This document shows positions 9,066-19,495 of a stretch of 64,000 nucleotides of DNA, piece by piece. The first letter of the stretch is position 1; every line of letters begins with the position of its first letter. This stretch comes from Pseudomonas sp. NCCP-436 (GTDB lineage Bacteria > Pseudomonadota > Gammaproteobacteria > Pseudomonadales > Pseudomonadaceae), in assembly GCF_019656335.1 (NCBI RefSeq), contig NZ_BPLZ01000001.1, positions 186,001 through 250,000 on the forward strand, written 5' to 3'. The notes under the pieces are model-generated. The model was given only the letters and a program-made list of their open reading frames with translations, did not search any database and had not been told where the DNA came from. A program made the position numbers and the translations under genes.

Positions 9066-9933
9066 TTTCTGAGCTGCCTGTGCGGCAGTGAAGTTTCGCC
9101 GGGCCGCTTCGCGGGCGACCACGATTTTCTGAGCTGCCTGTGCGGCAGTGAAGCAATTGGTCAGCGGCTCGTCCGCGAGCGGCGTTTTCTGAGCTGCCTG
9201 TGCGGCAGTGAAGTAAAGCCTTAAGCTCAGCAAGACGGGCGTCCATTTCTGAGCTGCCTGTGCGGCAGTGAAGAATCTGCCACGATTAACCGCCCAGCTC
9301 GATTATTTCTGAGCTGCCTGTGCGGCAGTGAAGCGAGGCGGCTGTATACGTTCAGGCGTGTCGCGTTTCTGAGCTGCCTGTGCGGCAGTGAAGGAGCCGG
9401 TTCGCGCTGGCAGCCTGATCGACTTTTTCTGAGCTGCCTGTGCGGCAGTGAAGACCGCCGTCTCGAAGGCGTTCAACACCGGCAATTTCTGAGCTGCCTG
9501 TGCGGCAGTGAAGTCCGCGGCATCAACCTGGAGTAAAAGGGTAATTTTCTGAGCTGCCTGTGCGGCAGTGAAGGCGCCGTGGCCGGTCTATCTGGCTCTG
9601 GCGATTTTCTGAGCTGCCTGTGCGGCAGTGAAGGATGATCGAGGAAGAGGCCGGCATAGACGCACTTTCTGAGCTGCCTGTGCGGCAGTGAAGTTCCATC
9701 AATCGATGGCTCAACGGTATTGGTTTTTCTGAGCTGCCTGTGCGGCAGTGAAGCCCGCCTTTCACCTGGCGCTGCGCTTCCTCCATTTCTGAGCTGCCTG
9801 TGCGGCAGTGAAGTTCAAACTGGATATTGAGGCGGTCGATCTCAGTTTCTGAGCTGCCTGTGCGGCAGTGAAGATAGTCGGTATGGGATTCCATACCAAT
9901 TTGGGTTTCTGAGCTGCCTGTGCGGCAGTGAAG
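9066..9933 (-). CRISPR. Type I-F CRISPR array, 15 repeats and 14 spacers
   Basis: The 28-bp repeat (plus strand begins TTTCTGAGCTGCC and ends GGCAGTGAAG) recurs every 60 bp exactly, with 32-bp spacers. On the transcribed minus strand it begins CTTCACTGCC, contains the stem CTGCC-GCACA-GGCAG and ends CTCAGAAA, the form cleaved by Cas6f to leave an 8-nt 5' handle. All 15 repeats look identical, including the one at the hydrolase end. The leader side is at 9934-10063, next to cas6f, so the newest spacer should be 9874-9905. Type I-F is confirmed by the adjoining cas genes. Confidence 0.98.
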
Positions 9934-9941
9934 AAGAGCTT

Positions 9942-9983
9942 AACACCCTCCAGGCCTGCGCAGTAAAAGGCCTGGAGGGTGTT
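9942..9983. repeat. Perfect 16-bp inverted repeat in the CRISPR leader
   Basis: AACACCCTCCAGGCCT (9942-9957) and AGGCCTGGAGGGTGTT (9968-9983) are exact complements around a 10-base loop. It begins 8 bases from the leader-proximal repeat. Read on the array strand it is followed by AAGCTCTT, not a U-run, so it is not an ordinary terminator. Role unknown. Confidence 0.9.
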
Positions 9984-10017
9984 GGTGCGTCCAATACCCT
10001 ATTTTTTAGCCGCTTTG

Positions 10018-10030
10018 TAACTCATTGATT
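10018..10030 (-). promoter_or_regulatory. IHF consensus site in the CRISPR leader
   Basis: On the minus strand AATCAATGAGTTA matches the IHF consensus WATCAANNNNTTR at every defined position. It lies about 85-97 bp upstream of the first repeat, in the AT-rich part of the leader. IHF bending of the leader is required for spacer integration in studied type I-E and I-F systems. Function here is inferred. Confidence 0.7.
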
Positions 10031-10063
10031 TTTAAAGAGCTAAATTTACGGCTGAAAAAAGGG

Positions 10064-10627
10064 TCAGAACCAGGGCACGCTGGCGGTACTGCTTAGGCCG
10101 TAGCGGTTGAAGGTTCCGGGTTGTGGGCTGTCGAGCAGTGGCCCGTGGCGGATAAAGAGGTTAAAGCGCTCCCCCGAGCTGTTGCTGCGTATGGCCACAT
10201 AGGGCAGGTTGCAGCGTTTGCCGGCGCTGTCCGGGATGCGCTGGCGGGCTTCCTCAAGGCTAATGCCGTGGCGCTTGATCAGGCGCCGGCGGGCGCGCTC
10301 GGGGTTGCTGTCGACCTGTACGCGGCTGACCAGGCGATGCTTTGCCCCAGCCGGTACCTGTGCCAGCTCTCCGGTATGCAGGTGGTCGCGCATGCCGCTC
10401 AGCCAGTTAAGTGCCAGCAGTTTATCCAGTGCCTCGGCGCTGCCGTGCAGGCGCAGACAATCGCCCAGGCCATGCCCGCCTGATTCGACGGCAGGGAAGC
10501 TGACGCCAATATCGTTGCGGCCCAGATCGCATAGACCCCGATGGAGTTTGCTGAACAGCGCACTCATCAACTGAGTGGCGGCAAACTCCGGGTCGGGCAG
10601 CAGTTTTAGGTCAAGGTAGTAATCCAT
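10064..10627 (-). CDS. cas6f: Cas6f (Csy4) crRNA endoribonuclease
   Basis: The product has 187 residues, the usual Csy4 length. The catalytic and RNA-contact residues known from P. aeruginosa Csy4 are all at the same positions: His29 (KLHRGL), Ser148 (AIRSNS) and Phe155 (GERF), plus the arginine-rich helix with Arg115 and Arg119. It cuts the repeat hairpin to make crRNAs and remains bound in the Csy complex. It starts 3 bases after csy3 and is the last cas gene before the leader. Confidence 0.97.
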   Translation of the reverse strand: MDYYLDLKLLPDPEFAATQLMSALFSKLHRGLCDLGRNDIGVSFPAVESGGHGLGDCLRLHGSAEALDKLLALNWLSGMRDHLHTGELAQVPAGAKHRLVSRVQVDSNPERARRRLIKRHGISLEEARQRIPDSAGKRCNLPYVAIRSNSSGERFNLFIRHGPLLDSPQPGTFNRYGLSSTASVPWF

Positions 10628-10630
10628 GGC

Positions 10631-11671
10631 TTAGCCCTTGTCGGAGTCGCCAAACACACCGCCACGAATCAGCGTGGCCATAACAAAGTGCTGCTGCTCG
10701 GTGGCTGGCGCCTTGTCTTTCAGTACCCAGTTATCCAGCAGGTTGTAGAAGTCCATTTTCTGCTTGGGCTGGCGATAGGCTTTGCCTTGTGTGGTGACGG
10801 AGCCGTAGGGCTCGATGGCAATAGGGCCGTTGATTTCGGCGCCTTCGTACCAGGTGTCGATGCTGCGCAAAGCGTTGCCGATTTTTTGCGAGTGAATGCC
10901 GGCGACTTCGTTAACTTTATAAAGAGTTTTGCTCTTTTCGCCCCGGCCACGGTCAAGGATCAGCTCTTGGGACGGGAAGACCTCCTGCCCATTTCCCATA
11001 CGGACAAAAGCCGTCACTTGCAGCAGCACATGATGTTCGCCGGCCAGCCCGGAGGCGATCAGGGCGCTAAGTTGTGCGAGATTGTCAGCCTGCTGGTGAT
11101 CGGCGGGTTTGTCGAAGTTGCGCAGGGAAAAGGCGAAGGCATCGAAGGTCCACTGCTTCTGTGCCTTCCCGTCTACCAGGTGGCTAACCTGCACTTCAAC
11201 CTGCTCCGCACCGATGCGGTTACGCCACAGGAAGCGGCCGTTGGCCAGGTTATGGGCGTAGCGGCGAGCCAGTTCAGTAAAACCGTGGCTGTCTACGTAG
11301 CCTTTTACCGTGGCCAGCAGTTTGTCGCGGTAGGCCGCCTCGTTGCAGGCGGAGGGTTCCCCGGTGCCGGCCAGCACACGCAGGGTGAACTGAACCTTGA
11401 GGGTGTCTGCATCAGCAGGCAGGGCGGCAACGTCTACGGTTTGCAGGTTGGGGTTTTCGATGGCGGCATCGAGCTTGGCTGGATCCTGATCCTTGGTTTT
11501 CAGGCGGTTGGAAATGGTGCCGCGGACAGACTTCTCGCGCACGGCAATCGGGCTCCAGTCCGCACTGTTGTCGCGCGTGGTCCAGTTGCCGGCGTAGAGC
11601 AGGGCGTCGGAGGGGTCCAGCTTGCGCTCAAAAGCCAGTACGGATGCGGTTTTCAGGGCTGCGTTGCTCAT
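10631..11671 (-). CDS. csy3: Cas7f (Csy3) backbone subunit
   Basis: The product has 346 residues. The N-terminus ([20 protein letters not shown]) and the segment [11 protein letters not shown] are typical Csy3. Six copies form the helical backbone of the type I-F surveillance complex along the crRNA. It lies 21 bases after csy2 and 3 bases before cas6f in the same operon. No defects seen. Confidence 0.96.
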
Positions 11672-11692: not shown

Positions 11693-12667
11693 TTAGTCGA
11701 GTTCAATAACCGGCGCTGACCGGTAGTCATTGCGGCAGCGATAGAGGCCGCTTTCGGGTTGGCTGTCGGTGTACCACAGCAGTTGTTGCGGAGCGTTCAG
11801 ACGGTGCGGGCTGATCCATTCGCCGATGCCGTAGAGGCTTTCGACGAAACAGAACGGCACGCTGCGGTCACGTACATTGGTCACGCTACCTGCGGCGTGC
11901 AGCTCGCCAAGAGCGCCGTAGCCGACCGGGATGGGGACGATCCAGCCAAGGCCTTTGCGGTCATGTTGCCAGGCCTCTTTACCCTCATCGTCGGCTTGCC
12001 ATTGCCAGTTGATACGCGCCAGTGACAGCCAGGCATCCAAGCGGGTGGCCTGCGGTTGGCTGGCTTGCAGCGCTTGATGGCGTTGTTCCAGCAAATCCTC
12101 GCGCTCAACCAGGGCAAAACCCGGCAGCAGGCGTAGTTTGAGTTTGCGAAAGAGTTCATCACGGCCTTCTTCATCTCCCGTCATAGACATGACATAGGGA
12201 CGTTGACGTGCGGATGGCAATGCCGCTTCAAGCACGCTGCCGCCGGCAATGCGCATTTGGCTGAGCAGCTCGCGTACCTGTCTGGCGATATCCACCGCTG
12301 TTTGCGGGTTTTCCAGCGCCTGGCTTTGCACGGCAAAAATCAGGCTGATATCCAGGTGGATGCGGCCCTCCTCAACAATGGCCAGGGTGCTGCCGTCTTT
12401 GTCGACCGGGTTGCGGGTCAGGCGAAACGCGCTGACGAAGTCGCTATCGGTAATTTGCTCTTCAAAGTCGTGAGCCACCACGCCAACGGCGTTAAAGCGC
12501 AGATCCAGCCCGGCGGCCCGGGCCTTGCGCTCCAGCGCCCACATCAGCCCGGTAAAGGCGGTGATGGAGGGAAACCCGTGGGTCAGCGGGCTGGAAATGG
12601 CATTGGCGTTTTGTACCCGCAGGCGGGGGATCACCAGCAGGTGTTCAAAGTAGGGGCACTCAGCCAT
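11693..12667 (-). CDS. csy2: Cas5f (Csy2) surveillance-complex subunit
   Basis: The product has 324 residues from the ATG at 12667 (MAECPYFEHLLVIPRLRVQN). The frame extends upstream, but this start gives the canonical N-terminus and an 8-base overlap with the end of csy1, typical of coupled cas genes. The stretch NANAISSPLTHGFPSITAF is characteristic. Csy2 pairs with Csy1 at the 5' handle of the crRNA and takes part in PAM recognition. Confidence 0.95.
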   Translation of the reverse strand: MAECPYFEHLLVIPRLRVQNANAISSPLTHGFPSITAFTGLMWALERKARAAGLDLRFNAVGVVAHDFEEQITDSDFVSAFRLTRNPVDKDGSTLAIVEEGRIHLDISLIFAVQSQALENPQTAVDIARQVRELLSQMRIAGGSVLEAALPSARQRPYVMSMTGDEEGRDELFRKLKLRLLPGFALVEREDLLEQRHQALQASQPQATRLDAWLSLARINWQWQADDEGKEAWQHDRKGLGWIVPIPVGYGALGELHAAGSVTNVRDRSVPFCFVESLYGIGEWISPHRLNAPQQLLWYTDSQPESGLYRCRNDYRSAPVIELD

Positions 12668-14018
12668 GCTGCACCTCCGCCTCAGGGTTTGCACTGGGCA
12701 CACGCCGGCGCTGCATGGTCGCTGGCCACTGCGCGTCAATCAGTGCCTGGCGCGCCCAATGTGCGTGTTCGGCATCACCTACCGGCAGGTCATGGCTGCG
12801 CAAAATGGCGTTAAGCCAATTGCCGAAGGCATGGGCGACCTGATCGGGCCAATCCTTCTGTTCATAGGCGACTGAGAAGGCCCGGTCTTCTTCCAGGTGG
12901 CTCACCCGTGGCGGCAGCGTGGCACGCTCGGGATCCAGCCAGAGTTTTTCGTACTCGGGCAGGCGGCAGTCCGGGTCGCGGCTCCAGCCAGGTTGAAGCT
13001 GGGCATGCAGGGTGGCGCCGAATGCGGCCAGTGATTCGCCCAAGGCCCGCTCAATACGCTTGCGCTTATGGCGGGTTTCTAGGGTCGCGGAGGGATTGCT
13101 TTTCAGCAGCGCGATCAAGGCCTGAAGCAACTCCGGCACCTCTTCAAAGCGGGCGAAGCGCGGCAATGTTGAGTCAATAAACAGCAAGTGACGCGGGCGG
13201 TTGTGCTGCCAGGATGGCGGCAGTGAGGCCAGCAGGTAGTTGACCCCGCCACGCTCACTGTTGAGTTGGCTGATGTTTTGCGGCTTGGTGCCACCGAGCT
13301 TACGCACGACTAAGTCGCGGTAATCGCGGTAGGTGTCGTCGTGGCTTTTTTTGTCGCGTTTGGCCTGGCGCGCCAGCTTGTTGCGCTCACCAAAACGCGC
13401 CTCGTTAATTTCCTGATGCACCGTATGGGCCAGGCTGCTGGCGAACATCGGTTGCAGCAGGTGATAGCCGCTATCGTCTGCGGGTTCACCGCTGACGCAC
13501 CAGTAGAGTTGTTTGGCCAGGGTATGAGAGGCCGGTTTATCGCTGCTGCGTAGCAGCCCTTTGAATGCGCTGGCCCATTGCTTGGCAATTTCGCTGTCGG
13601 GATGCAAGGCGGCCAGCAGGTCGCTATCGTCGGCCTGGAGCCAATCCAGCAAACGGCGGCCTTCCACCTCGATTTTCAGAAATTTGTACACGTCCAGCGC
13701 AGCGGCGTTGCCAACGATGTCGTCATCGTAGTGCTCGCCCAGCAAGTGACTGCCAATTTCGCTGTGTGTGGGCAAGCCCTGTGGCCGGATGTACAGGCTG
13801 CTACCCCGTGCATCCGGGTGGGTGGCTTTGAGCACATGGGTCACAGCCTGGATTTGCGACACCCGCCGCGCGGCGTCGGCCAGCCAGGTTGAGTAGTCGT
13901 ATTTGGCAGCGGCCTCTACCGCCGCATCTTCCTTCAAGCCCTTTAGCTTGGTCTCGCGCCTTTCATCAATGAAGGCGGAGATGGCGTTTAGGAATGCTGT
14001 TTTGCGTTCATGTCCCAT
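12660..14018 (-). CDS. csy1: Cas8f (Csy1) large subunit
   Basis: The product has 452 residues and resembles Csy1: an N-terminal helical part with QIQAVTHVLKATHPDARGSS, and the internal GGTKPQNISQLNSERGG motif typical of the family. Csy1 reads the GG PAM and opens target DNA in type I-F. The ATG at 14018 has GGAGG 5 bases upstream. It is 61 bases downstream of cas2/3 and overlaps csy2 by 8 bases. Intact. Confidence 0.95.
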   Translation of the reverse strand: MGHERKTAFLNAISAFIDERRETKLKGLKEDAAVEAAAKYDYSTWLADAARRVSQIQAVTHVLKATHPDARGSSLYIRPQGLPTHSEIGSHLLGEHYDDDIVGNAAALDVYKFLKIEVEGRRLLDWLQADDSDLLAALHPDSEIAKQWASAFKGLLRSSDKPASHTLAKQLYWCVSGEPADDSGYHLLQPMFASSLAHTVHQEINEARFGERNKLARQAKRDKKSHDDTYRDYRDLVVRKLGGTKPQNISQLNSERGGVNYLLASLPPSWQHNRPRHLLFIDSTLPRFARFEEVPELLQALIALLKSNPSATLETRHKRKRIERALGESLAAFGATLHAQLQPGWSRDPDCRLPEYEKLWLDPERATLPPRVSHLEEDRAFSVAYEQKDWPDQVAHAFGNWLNAILRSHDLPVGDAEHAHWARQALIDAQWPATMQRRRVPSANPEAEVQHG

Positions 14019-14079: not shown

Positions 14080-17000
14080 TTAGTGCTTTCTTCTTCCAAA
14101 CCCCAACATCGGGTGATAGCGCCAGCCTTGCGTATAGTTCGGCACGCTGACGGTGGTGAAACGTTCGGCGCAGTGTTGCAGTGACAGGCCTTGCGCTTCG
14201 GCCTGTTCATTGAGCAGTTTCAGCAGGTCGTGCTGCTCCCAAAAGCTGATGCCAGGACCAAGATTCGGCTGCAGGTAGACGACCTGGCTTTCCGCGCGGG
14301 TGTAGATCGCGCGCTGTTTGCCTTTGGCCGCTTGATGAATGCGGTGAACGATCAGTTGTTCGCCGTCATCGTCCGGCAGGAACAGCAGGTCTTCCTCAAA
14401 ACCCGGATCGTCCCGGAACGGCTGCTGCTGCGGCAGTGCCCAGGTCAGTGCGGCATCAGGAAATTGCCAGGCGCAGGCGGCGTCCAGCTCCAGGCCGGCG
14501 GGTTTTACCCCGCGTTGCGCACGGGGAGCAGCGTTGCGCGGCTTGGGCAGCATTTGTTCGGCCAGGCGGGCATGTTCCAGATCGACCAGGCTGGTTTTCG
14601 GTTGCCACTGCGGCATGGGCCTTGGCTGGATGCGCGGGGTCGCGGTAATGATCTGGTATTCGTCGGGTTGCAGCAGATTGCCCAGGCGGCGTTTGACCAG
14701 CCGGAAGGGGCTGTCAATGCGTCGGCTGTCGCTTTCAAAGCCCGGATGGATAAACGCGGCCAGGGGATAACCCTGATCCCCTTTGTCCGGCGAGAAATAC
14801 TTCAGGTTGGTCTCGAAAATCAGAATATTGGGCGTCTGGCAGGGCCGATTGCGGTGGCGCTGCACGCGTCCGGCCAATTGGATCAGCGAGCGCATGGACG
14901 AAGGCTCGACCACCGCCCAGTCGTAATCGTGGTCGCGGCCCACTTCGGTCACCGGCGAGCCGAGCACCACGAACAACTGATTGGCCTCTGGGTGCTGGTC
15001 GATGGCAGCGCGGACGCTGGCGTGCTCATAAGTAGCTTCGGCGTTGCGCCGGTTCAGGCAGGTGTCCAGTTGATGCTCAATGGCCGAGCGCAGCAGCAGT
15101 GGGAAGCGTGAGTGATAGACGCACAGGTGGATGCGGTAGCCATCCGGTGCACCGAGGCGCAGCAGCTCCAGCGCAACGTCGAACAGCGGGCCGATATTGG
15201 CCATGCGCACCAGGCCGAAACTGACTCGCTTGCCGCTGTGAGGGCAGGTTTCGTGGTGACGCTTGTGGGCCTGAATGATCGCTTTTTGCACCTCGCCGGC
15301 AAAGGCGCTGCGCACCGCGTCTTCCTGTTTGGCGCTGATCTCCAGCGGCAGCAGTTCGGCGCGGCGCCTGGCGCCCTCTTGTTCAGTGACCTGCGCCAGT
15401 GATTGCACGCGGCGTTGTACAAATTGTTGGTGGGCGCTGTTGAACTGCTGGGCATCGCTGCAGGTGGCCTGTTGCGGGGCGAACTCATCCAGCCACAGGC
15501 AGGCAATCTGTAGGGCGCTGTCCTGCCCGCCATGTTGCCCGCGATTGCGCTGGTACTGTTGCCGACCGGCGCGGTAGGCCTGAAACATGCCATCGACCAG
15601 TGCTGGCGGCAGCGTGGCCGAGGACAGCAGCACGCGGCTGCCGAGCAGGCCTGCCCAGTGCACCAGACGGGTAAGAGCGGGAAGATCGGCCAGGTCGAAG
15701 TCGTCCAGTTCATCCAACACCAGATCGCTGCTCATCAGGCGCAGCATGGGGGCGATTTGCCGTCCGGCGCGCTGGGCTTCGGTGGCGGGCATCAGGTGGT
15801 CGATGGTGCAGACCAGCATGGGCGCCGACAGCAGCGAGCGAATGCGCTCATCGTGCATGGCTTTGGCCAGTAGCGGGTGATCGGCGTGCTGGCCTTCGTA
15901 GAGCACGTGGCTGTCTTCTTCGAGCAGCGCCTGGATCGACTCCGAGCCAGTGTTGTGGGCTTGCTCCTGGTAGTACTCAAACAGGCGGCGGCTGGCCGAG
16001 CCGCCCACGCGGATGGCCAGCTCGTCGTCGCTCAAATGCAGGTCTTCGCGGTAGCTGCGTCCAGTTTGCAGGGTGAGGGTGCGCAGGCCCAGGGCGAAGG
16101 TGGCGCGCATGCCCTGCTGCGGATCGGCCAGAGCATAGAGCACACGTGCGTTGGCCAGCGTCTTGCCACAGCCGGTTGAGGCCATGTTGATGATAAATGC
16201 GCCGTGTTCGGCGGCCTGTTCACGCAGGGTTGTGGCGGCATCAAAGGCTCTGTCTTGCCAGCGGAAGCGTTCGCTGGCGCTGCGTTTCTTTAAACCGCGA
16301 TGGCGCGCCAGGCGCGGCAGGTAACGTTCAAAGCCGGGCAGGCTGTGGCAGATGCTGCCCGCCATACGGGCGACGCCCAGCAGGTGCTCGTCCAGCGGCT
16401 GCTTCAGTTTCCCGTCGCGGTCGGTATTGGCGTAAAGCCTGCAGGCACTGTCGCCCTTGATGCGCTGTGTCGAATCGGCAGGCAGGCTGGAATAGTGATG
16501 GTCAGCCAGCATCAGGCACAGGCGCGCCAGGTGCATCACGTATGGGTTGCCCAGCCAGCTTTGCCGGTCAGCTCTGCTGTTGAGTGCCAACAGGCGAGTG
16601 GCCAGTTTGGCGGCCTGGGTACGCCATTTGGGCAGCACCACGGGTAACTCGTCGGCAAACTGCCAATAAGGGCTGATGGCTTCTGGCTCGGCACTTTGGC
16701 GCTGTTCGTTCCAGTCGTGCTCCACCATTTGCAGCAGGTTCGCCAGTTGACTGGCATTGAAGGTTTTGGACTTTTGTCCAAACCAGCTCTTGCCATCCTC
16801 CGCTGTGGTGCAGGGCAGTACTGGCAGCCGGTGATGGGTGACGACCAGCCAGGCGATGGCTGCAGCCAGTGGCGGCAAGTCTTTAAAGGGCGCTGGAGCC
16901 TGTGGGTCTAATCCGTCGCGCCAGTAACGTTCGGGGGCCAGCCAGTGGGTGTCGTCCAGGTTGTCGGGATTGGCCATGCGTTGCAGCCAGGTGACGTCAT

Positions 17001-17490
17001 CATCCGGGCCGACAAAAGCAAGAAACAGGCGCAGCGATACCCATTCGTGGCGATACAGGTTTCTTTCCCGGTGGTTATCACGCAGGCGTTGCTGGAAGGC
17101 GACGCTGGCTTTGCCCAGGTCGTGCAATAGCGCCGCCATCTGCGCCAGCAGCTTGATGTCCTCGCCGCTGTGCCAGTCATTCTCGTCATCCTTGCGCAGC
17201 ACGTCACGGCGGCTGGTATTGGTCGGCACGGCGCCCTGCTCGTTGAAGCGGCTGGCATCGCCGACGATCCACAGCAGCTCGCTATGGTCTTTGCCGCGAA
17301 TCCAGTGGCAGGCCACGGCGGTGTTCTTACGGGCGGTTTTACGCAACAGTTTGCGCAGAGTATCCAGGCCCGCTTGGGTGATGGGGGTTTGCCAGGTGCG
17401 CTCGCCACGGCGCTCGGCGAATTGATCGAGGATGCGGCGGGTTTCGGTCAGTGCGCGTTTTTCGCACTGGGAGATCAGCAGGATGTTCAT
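14080..17490 (-). CDS. cas3: Cas2-Cas3 fusion, nuclease-helicase (Cas3f)
   Basis: The product has 1136 residues, as expected for the I-F fusion. Residues 1 to about 95 form a Cas2-like domain (MNILLISQCEKRALTETRRI). The HD nuclease domain has LLHDLGK with His123-Asp124. The SF2 helicase has Walker A STGCGKT at 438-444 and motif II DELD at 593-596. It degrades DNA marked by the Csy complex, and through the Cas2 part it joins Cas1 in spacer acquisition. Its ATG overlaps the cas1 stop (ATGA). All main motifs are present, so interference should be functional. Confidence 0.96.
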   Translation of the reverse strand: MNILLISQCEKRALTETRRILDQFAERRGERTWQTPITQAGLDTLRKLLRKTARKNTAVACHWIRGKDHSELLWIVGDASRFNEQGAVPTNTSRRDVLRKDDENDWHSGEDIKLLAQMAALLHDLGKASVAFQQRLRDNHRERNLYRHEWVSLRLFLAFVGPDDDVTWLQRMANPDNLDDTHWLAPERYWRDGLDPQAPAPFKDLPPLAAAIAWLVVTHHRLPVLPCTTAEDGKSWFGQKSKTFNASQLANLLQMVEHDWNEQRQSAEPEAISPYWQFADELPVVLPKWRTQAAKLATRLLALNSRADRQSWLGNPYVMHLARLCLMLADHHYSSLPADSTQRIKGDSACRLYANTDRDGKLKQPLDEHLLGVARMAGSICHSLPGFERYLPRLARHRGLKKRSASERFRWQDRAFDAATTLREQAAEHGAFIINMASTGCGKTLANARVLYALADPQQGMRATFALGLRTLTLQTGRSYREDLHLSDDELAIRVGGSASRRLFEYYQEQAHNTGSESIQALLEEDSHVLYEGQHADHPLLAKAMHDERIRSLLSAPMLVCTIDHLMPATEAQRAGRQIAPMLRLMSSDLVLDELDDFDLADLPALTRLVHWAGLLGSRVLLSSATLPPALVDGMFQAYRAGRQQYQRNRGQHGGQDSALQIACLWLDEFAPQQATCSDAQQFNSAHQQFVQRRVQSLAQVTEQEGARRRAELLPLEISAKQEDAVRSAFAGEVQKAIIQAHKRHHETCPHSGKRVSFGLVRMANIGPLFDVALELLRLGAPDGYRIHLCVYHSRFPLLLRSAIEHQLDTCLNRRNAEATYEHASVRAAIDQHPEANQLFVVLGSPVTEVGRDHDYDWAVVEPSSMRSLIQLAGRVQRHRNRPCQTPNILIFETNLKYFSPDKGDQGYPLAAFIHPGFESDSRRIDSPFRLVKRRLGNLLQPDEYQIITATPRIQPRPMPQWQPKTSLVDLEHARLAEQMLPKPRNAAPRAQRGVKPAGLELDAACAWQFPDAALTWALPQQQPFRDDPGFEEDLLFLPDDDGEQLIVHRIHQAAKGKQRAIYTRAESQVVYLQPNLGPGISFWEQHDLLKLLNEQAEAQGLSLQHCAERFTTVSVPNYTQGWRYHPMLGFGRRKH

Positions 17491-18451
17491 GCGTCCGTGT
17501 GCTCGGCCACGTCCTTGAGGGTGTCGATCATAAAATCCAGTGACCCGCTGCGGGTCAGGTTATCGATACAGGCCTGACGAAATTCTTGCTCCTCATCGCC
17601 ACGCACCGCCGATATAAACGCCTGCGGCAGAATGGTGGCGTCCTTGACCAAATCGGCCACGTCAAACACCAGCCCACCGCGCCGGGTTTTGCCGTGCAGC
17701 ACGGCCAGACCGTGGGGATGCCCAGCACCCAGGTAGCGCTGGCCGCCAGGCCGTAGGCCAGATAATTGCCGTGGTCGAGAAAACGGTTGGCCGGGTCGCC
17801 GCCAGTACCGTTTTTGGCGCGTACAAAGTCACCGTAACCGGTTGCCCGTGCCGCCAAGGCAAAGAGTTGTTTACTTAGGCGTGCCTCTTCGGTGAGCAGA
17901 TGGGCGTTGTCGGGCACGCTGTCGATGGTCGTCAGGGAGGCGTCCAGGGCTTTTTCCAGCTCAGGCGCATTGATTTCGAAGCCCGCGTCGCGCAGGGCCC
18001 TGTTTTGCCAGCTTTGACGGATGCGCTGTAGACGAGCGCGTTGGAAATGCTTGGCTGCCGTCAGCCTGTGGGCGTCATCGAACCAGAACTTTACCCAACG
18101 CTGCAGGTACTCAGTTGGGCGGTACTCACTCTGCGGGGAAAACCAGGCGACTTCCACGCTCACTTCATTGGCTGAAAACAGAGGCGTGCCCCCGCCACCG
18201 CAGAACCCGACCAGCACGCCGGCCTTGGCCAGCTCGCGCATGGCCGCTTGGGTAATCGAGGTGCCAGTACCGAGCAGGATTGTGGTGGTATTGGCGATGG
18301 GGATATTCCAGTACAGCGACTGTTTTCCTGCATCGGTGACGTACTCGACTCGCCCGCCATTGACCAGCACCCGGCAGTGCTGCAGATAGTACAGATTGGC
18401 GCGCTTGGAGTGGAGAATGGTCTTGAGATCAGAAGGGCTGATGTCGTCCAT
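17487..18451 (-). pseudogene. cas1: cas1 (type I-F) with a single-base frameshift
   Basis: The gene starts at the ATG at 18451 (MDDISPSDLKTILHSKRANL; AGGAG 8 bases upstream) and should end at 17487, overlapping cas2/3 by ATGA. Reading is normal to residue 246 (WVLGIP). The frame then continues as TVWPCCTAKPGA to an out-of-frame stop at 17555. The neighbouring frame carries the expected HGLAVLHGKTRRGGLVFDVA and the true C-terminus. Adding one C in the run at plus-strand 17714-17717 (GGGG) restores a 321-residue Cas1. The break lies before His253, Asp264 and Asp267, equivalents of the P. aeruginosa Cas1 active-site residues; Glu189 precedes it. Either a real null mutation or a homopolymer sequencing error. 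Confidence 0.9.
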
Positions 18452-18679: not shown

Positions 18680-19495
18680 TCACTCCATCTCGAACAGCCC
18701 ATCACGCAGCTTTGCCCCGGCAAGGCGTTGGCGGATGTCGTCGTCGATGCGCGGATCGTCCGGGGCGTAGAGCATCAGCTGGCGGTAGGCGTTGACCCGG
18801 TTGATCTCGCTGCCCAGGTAGTGCCAGACCACACGGGTGCAGGCCGGGGTTCTCCGGTCGCCGCTGGATACGCCGGTTTTGATACCGTTGAGTCGGTTGA
18901 TGCGGCTTTTGAAGCTGGGAATCAGAATGGTGTGGCTGATCTCGTTGCCGGTCAGGCTTTCGTAGTCCGTGAGGAAAATCCGATCCTGCAGGAGGAAAGC
19001 GGCGCCCAGATAGCGGCAGCGTACCCAGTCTTCGCTGTCACCGCGGGTACGCTCCTGGCGTTCCTGACGTTCCTGGCGCTCGAACAGGTAGGCACCGCGC
19101 TCCAGGCGCAGGTGCACCAGTGACAGCAGGACGTGCCCGGGAACCGACATGCAGTTGGCGTATTCAAAATAGTAGCCACAGTAACGATCCAGCGAACTGG
19201 CCTGGCGGCGTAGCGGTGAGAACAGTTCCAGCAGCGGGTCGCCATCGGCTGGCAGAGTGCCGCCGTCGCGAACGCCGATCAGGCGGGCGAACTGCTCGCT
19301 CGGCATCTCCAGTTCGTATGGCTCGACGCCAAAGAAGTCGCAGATACGCTTGAGGTTATGGGCGGTGGGGCGACTTTGCCCGGCGAGGTAGCGATTGAAC
19401 TGGGCGCGGTTGAGCGCCAGCTTGCGGCATACCTCGGCAATCGAGCGATAGTGGCTGCACAGCAGTTTCAGGTTGCTGCCGAACTGATTCGACAT
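18680..19495 (-). CDS. XRE-family helix-turn-helix regulator
   Basis: The product has 271 residues. Residues about 15-62 form a Cro/CI-type helix-turn-helix (SIAEVCRKLALNRAQFNRYL, then FGVEPYELEM). The rest looks like a globular ligand or protein-interaction domain of unknown type, with a short repeat RQERQERQER near residues 140-150. It is the gene directly upstream of cas1 on the same strand, 228 bp away, and is divergent from the AGCS symporter. The ATG at 19495 lacks a good ribosome site (CCTCC precedes it). It may regulate the cas operon, the symporter, or itself; the sequence cannot decide. Confidence 0.8.
   Translation of the reverse strand: MSNQFGSNLKLLCSHYRSIAEVCRKLALNRAQFNRYLAGQSRPTAHNLKRICDFFGVEPYELEMPSEQFARLIGVRDGGTLPADGDPLLELFSPLRRQASSLDRYCGYYFEYANCMSVPGHVLLSLVHLRLERGAYLFERQERQERQERTRGDSEDWVRCRYLGAAFLLQDRIFLTDYESLTGNEISHTILIPSFKSRINRLNGIKTGVSSGDRRTPACTRVVWHYLGSEINRVNAYRQLMLYAPDDPRIDDDIRQRLAGAKLRDGLFEME

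Follow-up and report, generated by a model that had tools for sequence, protein, structure and literature searches.

In the type I-F CRISPR-Cas system of Pseudomonas aeruginosa, Cas1 and Cas2/3 form a heterohexamer, the Cas2/3 nuclease is repressed by Cas1, and R259 and R293 are among the conserved residues that guide DNA to the Cas1 active site, as described in a preprint (PMC12259127). For the native type I-F system of P. atrosepticum, a further study reports that adaptation requires Cas1 (PMC5059440). Here, we provide evidence from Pseudomonas sp. NCCP-436 for a type I-F locus whose cas1 belongs to the same family as P. aeruginosa Cas1 (PDB chain 9p11_F) but leaves its native reading frame at residue 246 of 321; it is probably a normal type I-F cas1 that has recently lost its function. 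The window, i.e., the whole stretch of DNA analysed, is 64,000 nucleotides long and contains the following features of the locus.

17714..18451, minus strand: in-frame part of cas1, codons 1-246, which keeps E189 (translation, profile and structure-chain matches)
17714..17717, minus strand: run of four C (four G on the plus strand), the frame-break point (sequence, alignment of relatives)
17555..17713, minus strand: out-of-frame tail of 52 codons with an early TGA at 17557-17555 (translation)
17487..17717, minus strand: conserved C-terminal part of Cas1, displaced into the -1 frame, with H253, D264 and D267 (translation, profile match)
14080..17490, minus strand: cas2/3 (Cas3f), 1136 amino acids (NCBIfam match, motifs)
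12660..14018, minus strand: csy1 (cas8f) (NCBIfam match)
11693..12673, minus strand: csy2 (cas5f) (NCBIfam match)
10631..11671, minus strand: csy3 (cas7f) (NCBIfam match)
10064..10627, minus strand: csy4 (cas6f) (NCBIfam match)
9934..10063, minus strand: region from csy4 to the first repeat of array 1, its putative leader (inferred role and orientation)
9066..9933, minus strand: CRISPR array 1, 15 identical 28-nt repeats and 14 spacers of 32 nt (repeat search)

The cas1 gene starts at 18451 on the minus strand (N-terminus MDDISPSDLK), and its 0-frame encodes 246 Cas1 residues ending in WVLGIP followed by 52 foreign residues, 298 amino acids in total. The -1 frame from 17717 to 17487 encodes 76 amino acids (PHGLAVLHGK...HTDA, then the stop), the first of which is the shared proline. 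The original prediction had placed the frame break after WVLGIP at the four-G run 17714-17717, which is borne out by translation and by consecutive matches on both sides: the two pieces cover positions 1-236 and 236-306 of profile TIGR03637 (307 positions), and residues 1-247 and 247-320 of chain 9p11_F (324 residues). Against the curated TIGR03637 cut-off of 150 bits, the 5' part scores above (373.4) and the 3' part alone below (117.6). The displaced 76 codons stay open throughout and match type I-F Cas1 with E = 6.9e-34, so that the frame break is no chance effect. Read-through would yield the predicted Cas1 of 321 residues, with 75 conserved residues past the break, and its overlap with cas2/3 also holds, as the TGA of the -1 frame (17489-17487) overlaps the cas2/3 ATG at 17490. 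The break is a true feature of the sequence, either an ordinary null allele or an error.

We take PDB entries 3god, 8flj and 9p11 to be P. aeruginosa type I-F Cas1, and E190, H254, D265 and D268 of that protein to be the counterparts of E189, H253, D264 and D267, with which the alignment offset of one agrees. The metal-binding Glu, His, Asp and Asp are not found in one open frame: E189 is in frame, whereas H253, D264 and D267, and hence the counterparts of P. aeruginosa H254, D265 and D268, occur only in the -1 frame. The truncated product therefore lacks His253, Asp264 and Asp267, as had been proposed. The region matching P. aeruginosa R259 and R293 is likewise out of frame. No second Cas1 that could complement the broken one was found in the genome (3.68 Mb, 43 contigs), which has one Cas1 place by Pfam and contains the C-terminal Cas1 piece once.

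In a genus sample, 10 of 199 genomes, our own included, had some match to the 5' part of cas1. The tested loci comprise eight from this sample (L007-L014) and 80 named ones (L018-L097, the best 80 of at least 570 confirmed), i.e., 88 loci, which are not all independent because L007 and L020, judged by length and position, are the same contig; our own copies and two weakly matching G004 fragments (L015, L016) were left out of this count. Badly broken copies could be under-represented, because the named loci were ranked by their match over the whole 5' part. Both Cas1 parts lie in one frame in 87 of the 88 loci (including the best 80 of at least 570), and the remaining one (L076) stops at a contig end; the break is therefore seen in this genome alone. 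A run of five C at the break site, in frame, occurs in four of the 87 spanning loci (L008, L010, L018, L024). Pseudomonas sp. 5P_3.1_Bac2 (L018), P. alcaliphila (L020) and P. composti (L021) have a cas1 that is 85-90% identical over residues 1-246 and share the 4-base cas1-cas2/3 overlap of the read-through gene, but their cas1 is unbroken. A single pattern across the break site found no copy in viral_contigs, and the search of plasmids returned two partial records, a cas1f (78.0% identity, 8% of the query) and a stretch of 57 bases.

The site itself could suggest that the break is overcome during expression, in that re-pairing of prolyl-tRNA on the overlapping CCC of the C-run would permit a -1 slip that gives some full-length Cas1, or that run length switches adaptation on and off. 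The codon after the run is the conserved His and the downstream frame is conserved, but none of the 87 spanning relatives (from a set with the best 80 of at least 570) has a shift at this site, and 83 nt of RNA around and downstream of it show no unusual structure (z = +0.89; 161 of 200 shuffled sequences fold equally well or better; pseudoknots outside the model). Tandem slippage is not expected, since the Ile codon ahead of the run, on inspection, offers no re-pairing in the -1 frame; ordinary transcriptional slippage takes a longer run than this one. With neither a conserved slippery site or shift nor a stable downstream structure, we reject programmed -1 frameshifting as the main reading and regard a productive slip or switch as very improbable. 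An equally far-fetched proposal is that the C-tract, through changes in its length or through leaky slippage, tunes spacer acquisition and, via stop-start coupling, Cas2/3 output in the population.

The displaced C-terminus shows how little time a loss-of-function allele would have had to decay. Relative to 13 of the 88 relatives, dN/dS was 0.028-0.144 for the displaced 3' part and 0.048-0.165 for the 5' part, with many dS values near saturation, and the 3' value was the lower one in eight of the 13. Pairs of intact relatives had 3' dN/dS values of 0-0.078 (four pairs not calculable), lower than the 0.072-0.122 of this genome when compared with those close relatives, a possible hint of slight relaxation. 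Because of this hint, lineage-specific residues were counted, and they amount to 5/236 in the 5' part and 2/68 in the 3' part of this genome compared to 8/236 and 2/68 in the intact L018, the nearest named relative among the matches listed (Fisher p = 1). The 3'/5' ratio of differences from the near-relative consensus places this genome 27th from the bottom of 73, under the median. Among the columns without variation in 79 relatives (of 87; eight unparsed), it differs at 0/87 positions in the 5' part and 0/31 in the 3' part, and among those without variation in the 13 relatives at 2/152 and 1/48, respectively. Relaxed selection on the displaced C-terminus is thus rejected, as neither lineage-specific residues nor invariant columns give a sign of it. 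Selection has therefore acted until very recently or still acts, i.e., the lesion is very young or an error. This result speaks against a loss-of-function allele of any greater age and agrees just as well with a wrong base call.

If the missing base were a sequencing or assembly error, the chromosomal cas1 would be ordinary and in frame, and the type I-F system complete and able to adapt. The homopolymer, the difference of only one base, a gene otherwise free of lesions and a fully conserved displaced part are all in accordance with this explanation, as are the uniform repeats in both CRISPR arrays of the genome, which resemble those of a recently active system. Yet a run of four bases is short, and the assembly showed no general indel problem in the sampled 464 kb (12.6% of the genome), which comprise the window plus 20 further stretches, each of 20 kb, and on which a codon-usage frame-switch model was run. 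Two earlier versions of the model had made many gene-boundary calls (the first) or caught only 21 of 56 simulated deletions (the second). The third detected 113 of 126 simulated one-base deletions and classed 64 of them as internal and 49 as boundary-like; the simulated deletions were confined to coding runs of 600 nt or more and lay at least 150 nt from the run ends. On the real 464 kb it made 41 calls, four of them internal, namely cas1 and three others; by eye, these three seem to mark where an AraC-type regulator gene ends, where two small lipoprotein-like genes adjoin and where an RluD-like gene starts. Inspection of the internal class, the class in which the detector places 64 of 126 simulated deletions, thus gave no other clear internal frameshift in the 464 kb, and the assembly therefore does not look indel-prone, although some frameshifts could hide among the 37 boundary-like calls. 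The original prediction that the homopolymer context makes a sequencing error plausible stands: a single error at this run is a serious possibility, albeit one that we consider somewhat unlikely, but a general indel problem is not seen. How we weigh a real allele against an error is a matter of judgement and was not computed.

Broken cas1 genes in other genomes further speak against an error. Of 369 genomes sampled from the class, 42 (our own included) had a type I-F Cas1 match over the cut-off, and cas1 is broken in three of the 41 others (G552, G342, G539), which indicates that a broken type I-F cas1 is not rare but an ordinary lesion. In G552 the frame changes near residue 195 and the gene lies in two frames, as compared to the break at residue 246 here; this clean change may also be an error, which leaves the frequency of genuine broken alleles uncertain. 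The cas1 of G342 is decayed and has an in-frame stop. In G539 (L122, contig C51) cas1 adjoins other sequence at roughly the residue where the frame breaks here, and its C-terminus is lost. We rejected a frameshift shared with the G539 lineage, as the DNA shows a lost C-terminus and not a shift; the sequence past the junction is HD-domain-like by eye and in another frame. The match in G299 is partial owing to a contig end. The gene described here is one more broken cas1 among several, and not a new system. The titles and abstract openings of the papers listed for broken or frameshifted cas1 contain no description of this case, which does not show that alleles of this kind have gone unreported, and the accessible parts of PMC3542200 and PMC6567464 mention type I-F cas genes and no broken type I-F cas1.

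A recent loss-of-function allele, our preferred reading, would affect adaptation first. In this scenario, a short C-tract that is in frame in the relatives leaves the frame here, and cas1 translation would end after 246 native and 52 foreign residues. Without three of the four metal ligands and the C-terminal 75 residues, the product should, from the known Cas1 mechanism, be unable to integrate spacers. The proposal that the system cannot learn new spacers follows if the base count is real, because Cas1 is reported to be essential for adaptation in the native P. atrosepticum system (PMC5059440); for acquisition in this strain the loss is predicted.

The rest of the system appears fully equipped for interference. 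Type I-F membership is evident from cas2/3, csy1-4 and the 5' part of cas1, which pass their NCBIfam cut-offs, and from the array at 9066-9933. The prediction that all interference genes are intact proved correct, as cas2/3, csy1, csy2, csy3 and csy4 have full-length matches above cut-off with near-complete profile cover, and cas2/3 retains the HDLGK, Walker A, DELD, GSES latch and QLAGRV motifs. A second type I-F array outside the window (first contig of this genome, 179679-180726; L098), whose near end lies about 5.3 kb before the window, has 18 repeats and 17 spacers. Its repeats are uniform over 27 matched bases and the next base, and differ from the array 1 repeat in the loop and at one end; a degenerate repeat stands at the far end of the array. 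Array 1 gave two weak matches to phages, one of 80.7% identity over 12% of the query and one of 85.1% over 8%, each in two pieces, array 2 gave none, and one leader-end spacer per array (2 of 31 spacers; patterns of 28-29 nt) had no match in viral_contigs. Because the rest of the system is intact, crRNA-guided interference should persist: crRNAs from the two existing arrays would still guide the Csy complex and Cas2/3, so that memory would be frozen and defence kept.

This defence is nonetheless less secure than originally proposed. A 4-base overlap of the cas1 stop and the cas2/3 start (ATG or GTG) is present in 77 of 86 parsed relatives (from a set with the best 80 of at least 570), while two of the remaining ones have a distance of -1, one of -31 and one of +4, and five were not recognised by motif. 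Here, cas1 translation stops 64 nt ahead of the cas2/3 start, which has a weak Shine-Dalgarno-like match (-3.2 kcal/mol vs. -4.1 to -9.1 in the 13 relatives with a value). Interference may be altered, because the early stop undoes the stop-start overlap and because Cas1 is reported to repress Cas2/3 in the P. aeruginosa preprint (PMC12259127). Lost coupling and lost Cas1 control could thus change the level or regulation of interference, and the uncoupled start may lower Cas2/3 output. If the allele is real, this strain is a natural isolate whose CRISPR memory is frozen, an example of adaptation being lost ahead of interference. It would then also be a natural test case for type I-F defence in cells that lack both Cas1 and the translational coupling of cas1 to cas2/3.

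Two further features adjoin the locus or lie within it. Next to cas1, 18680-19495 on the minus strand encodes a 271-amino-acid protein with an N-terminal Cro/C1-type helix-turn-helix (PF13443), which had no NCBIfam match at E 0.001 and no relative in the related loci L007-L097. A perfect 16-bp hairpin with a 10-nt loop (9942-9983, minus strand) lies in the putative array 1 leader and ends 8 nt short of the first repeat. By eye it is absent from the leader ends of three relatives (L018, L021, L066), and its 15-base arm is present, among 117 loci, only in the four covering this same place.
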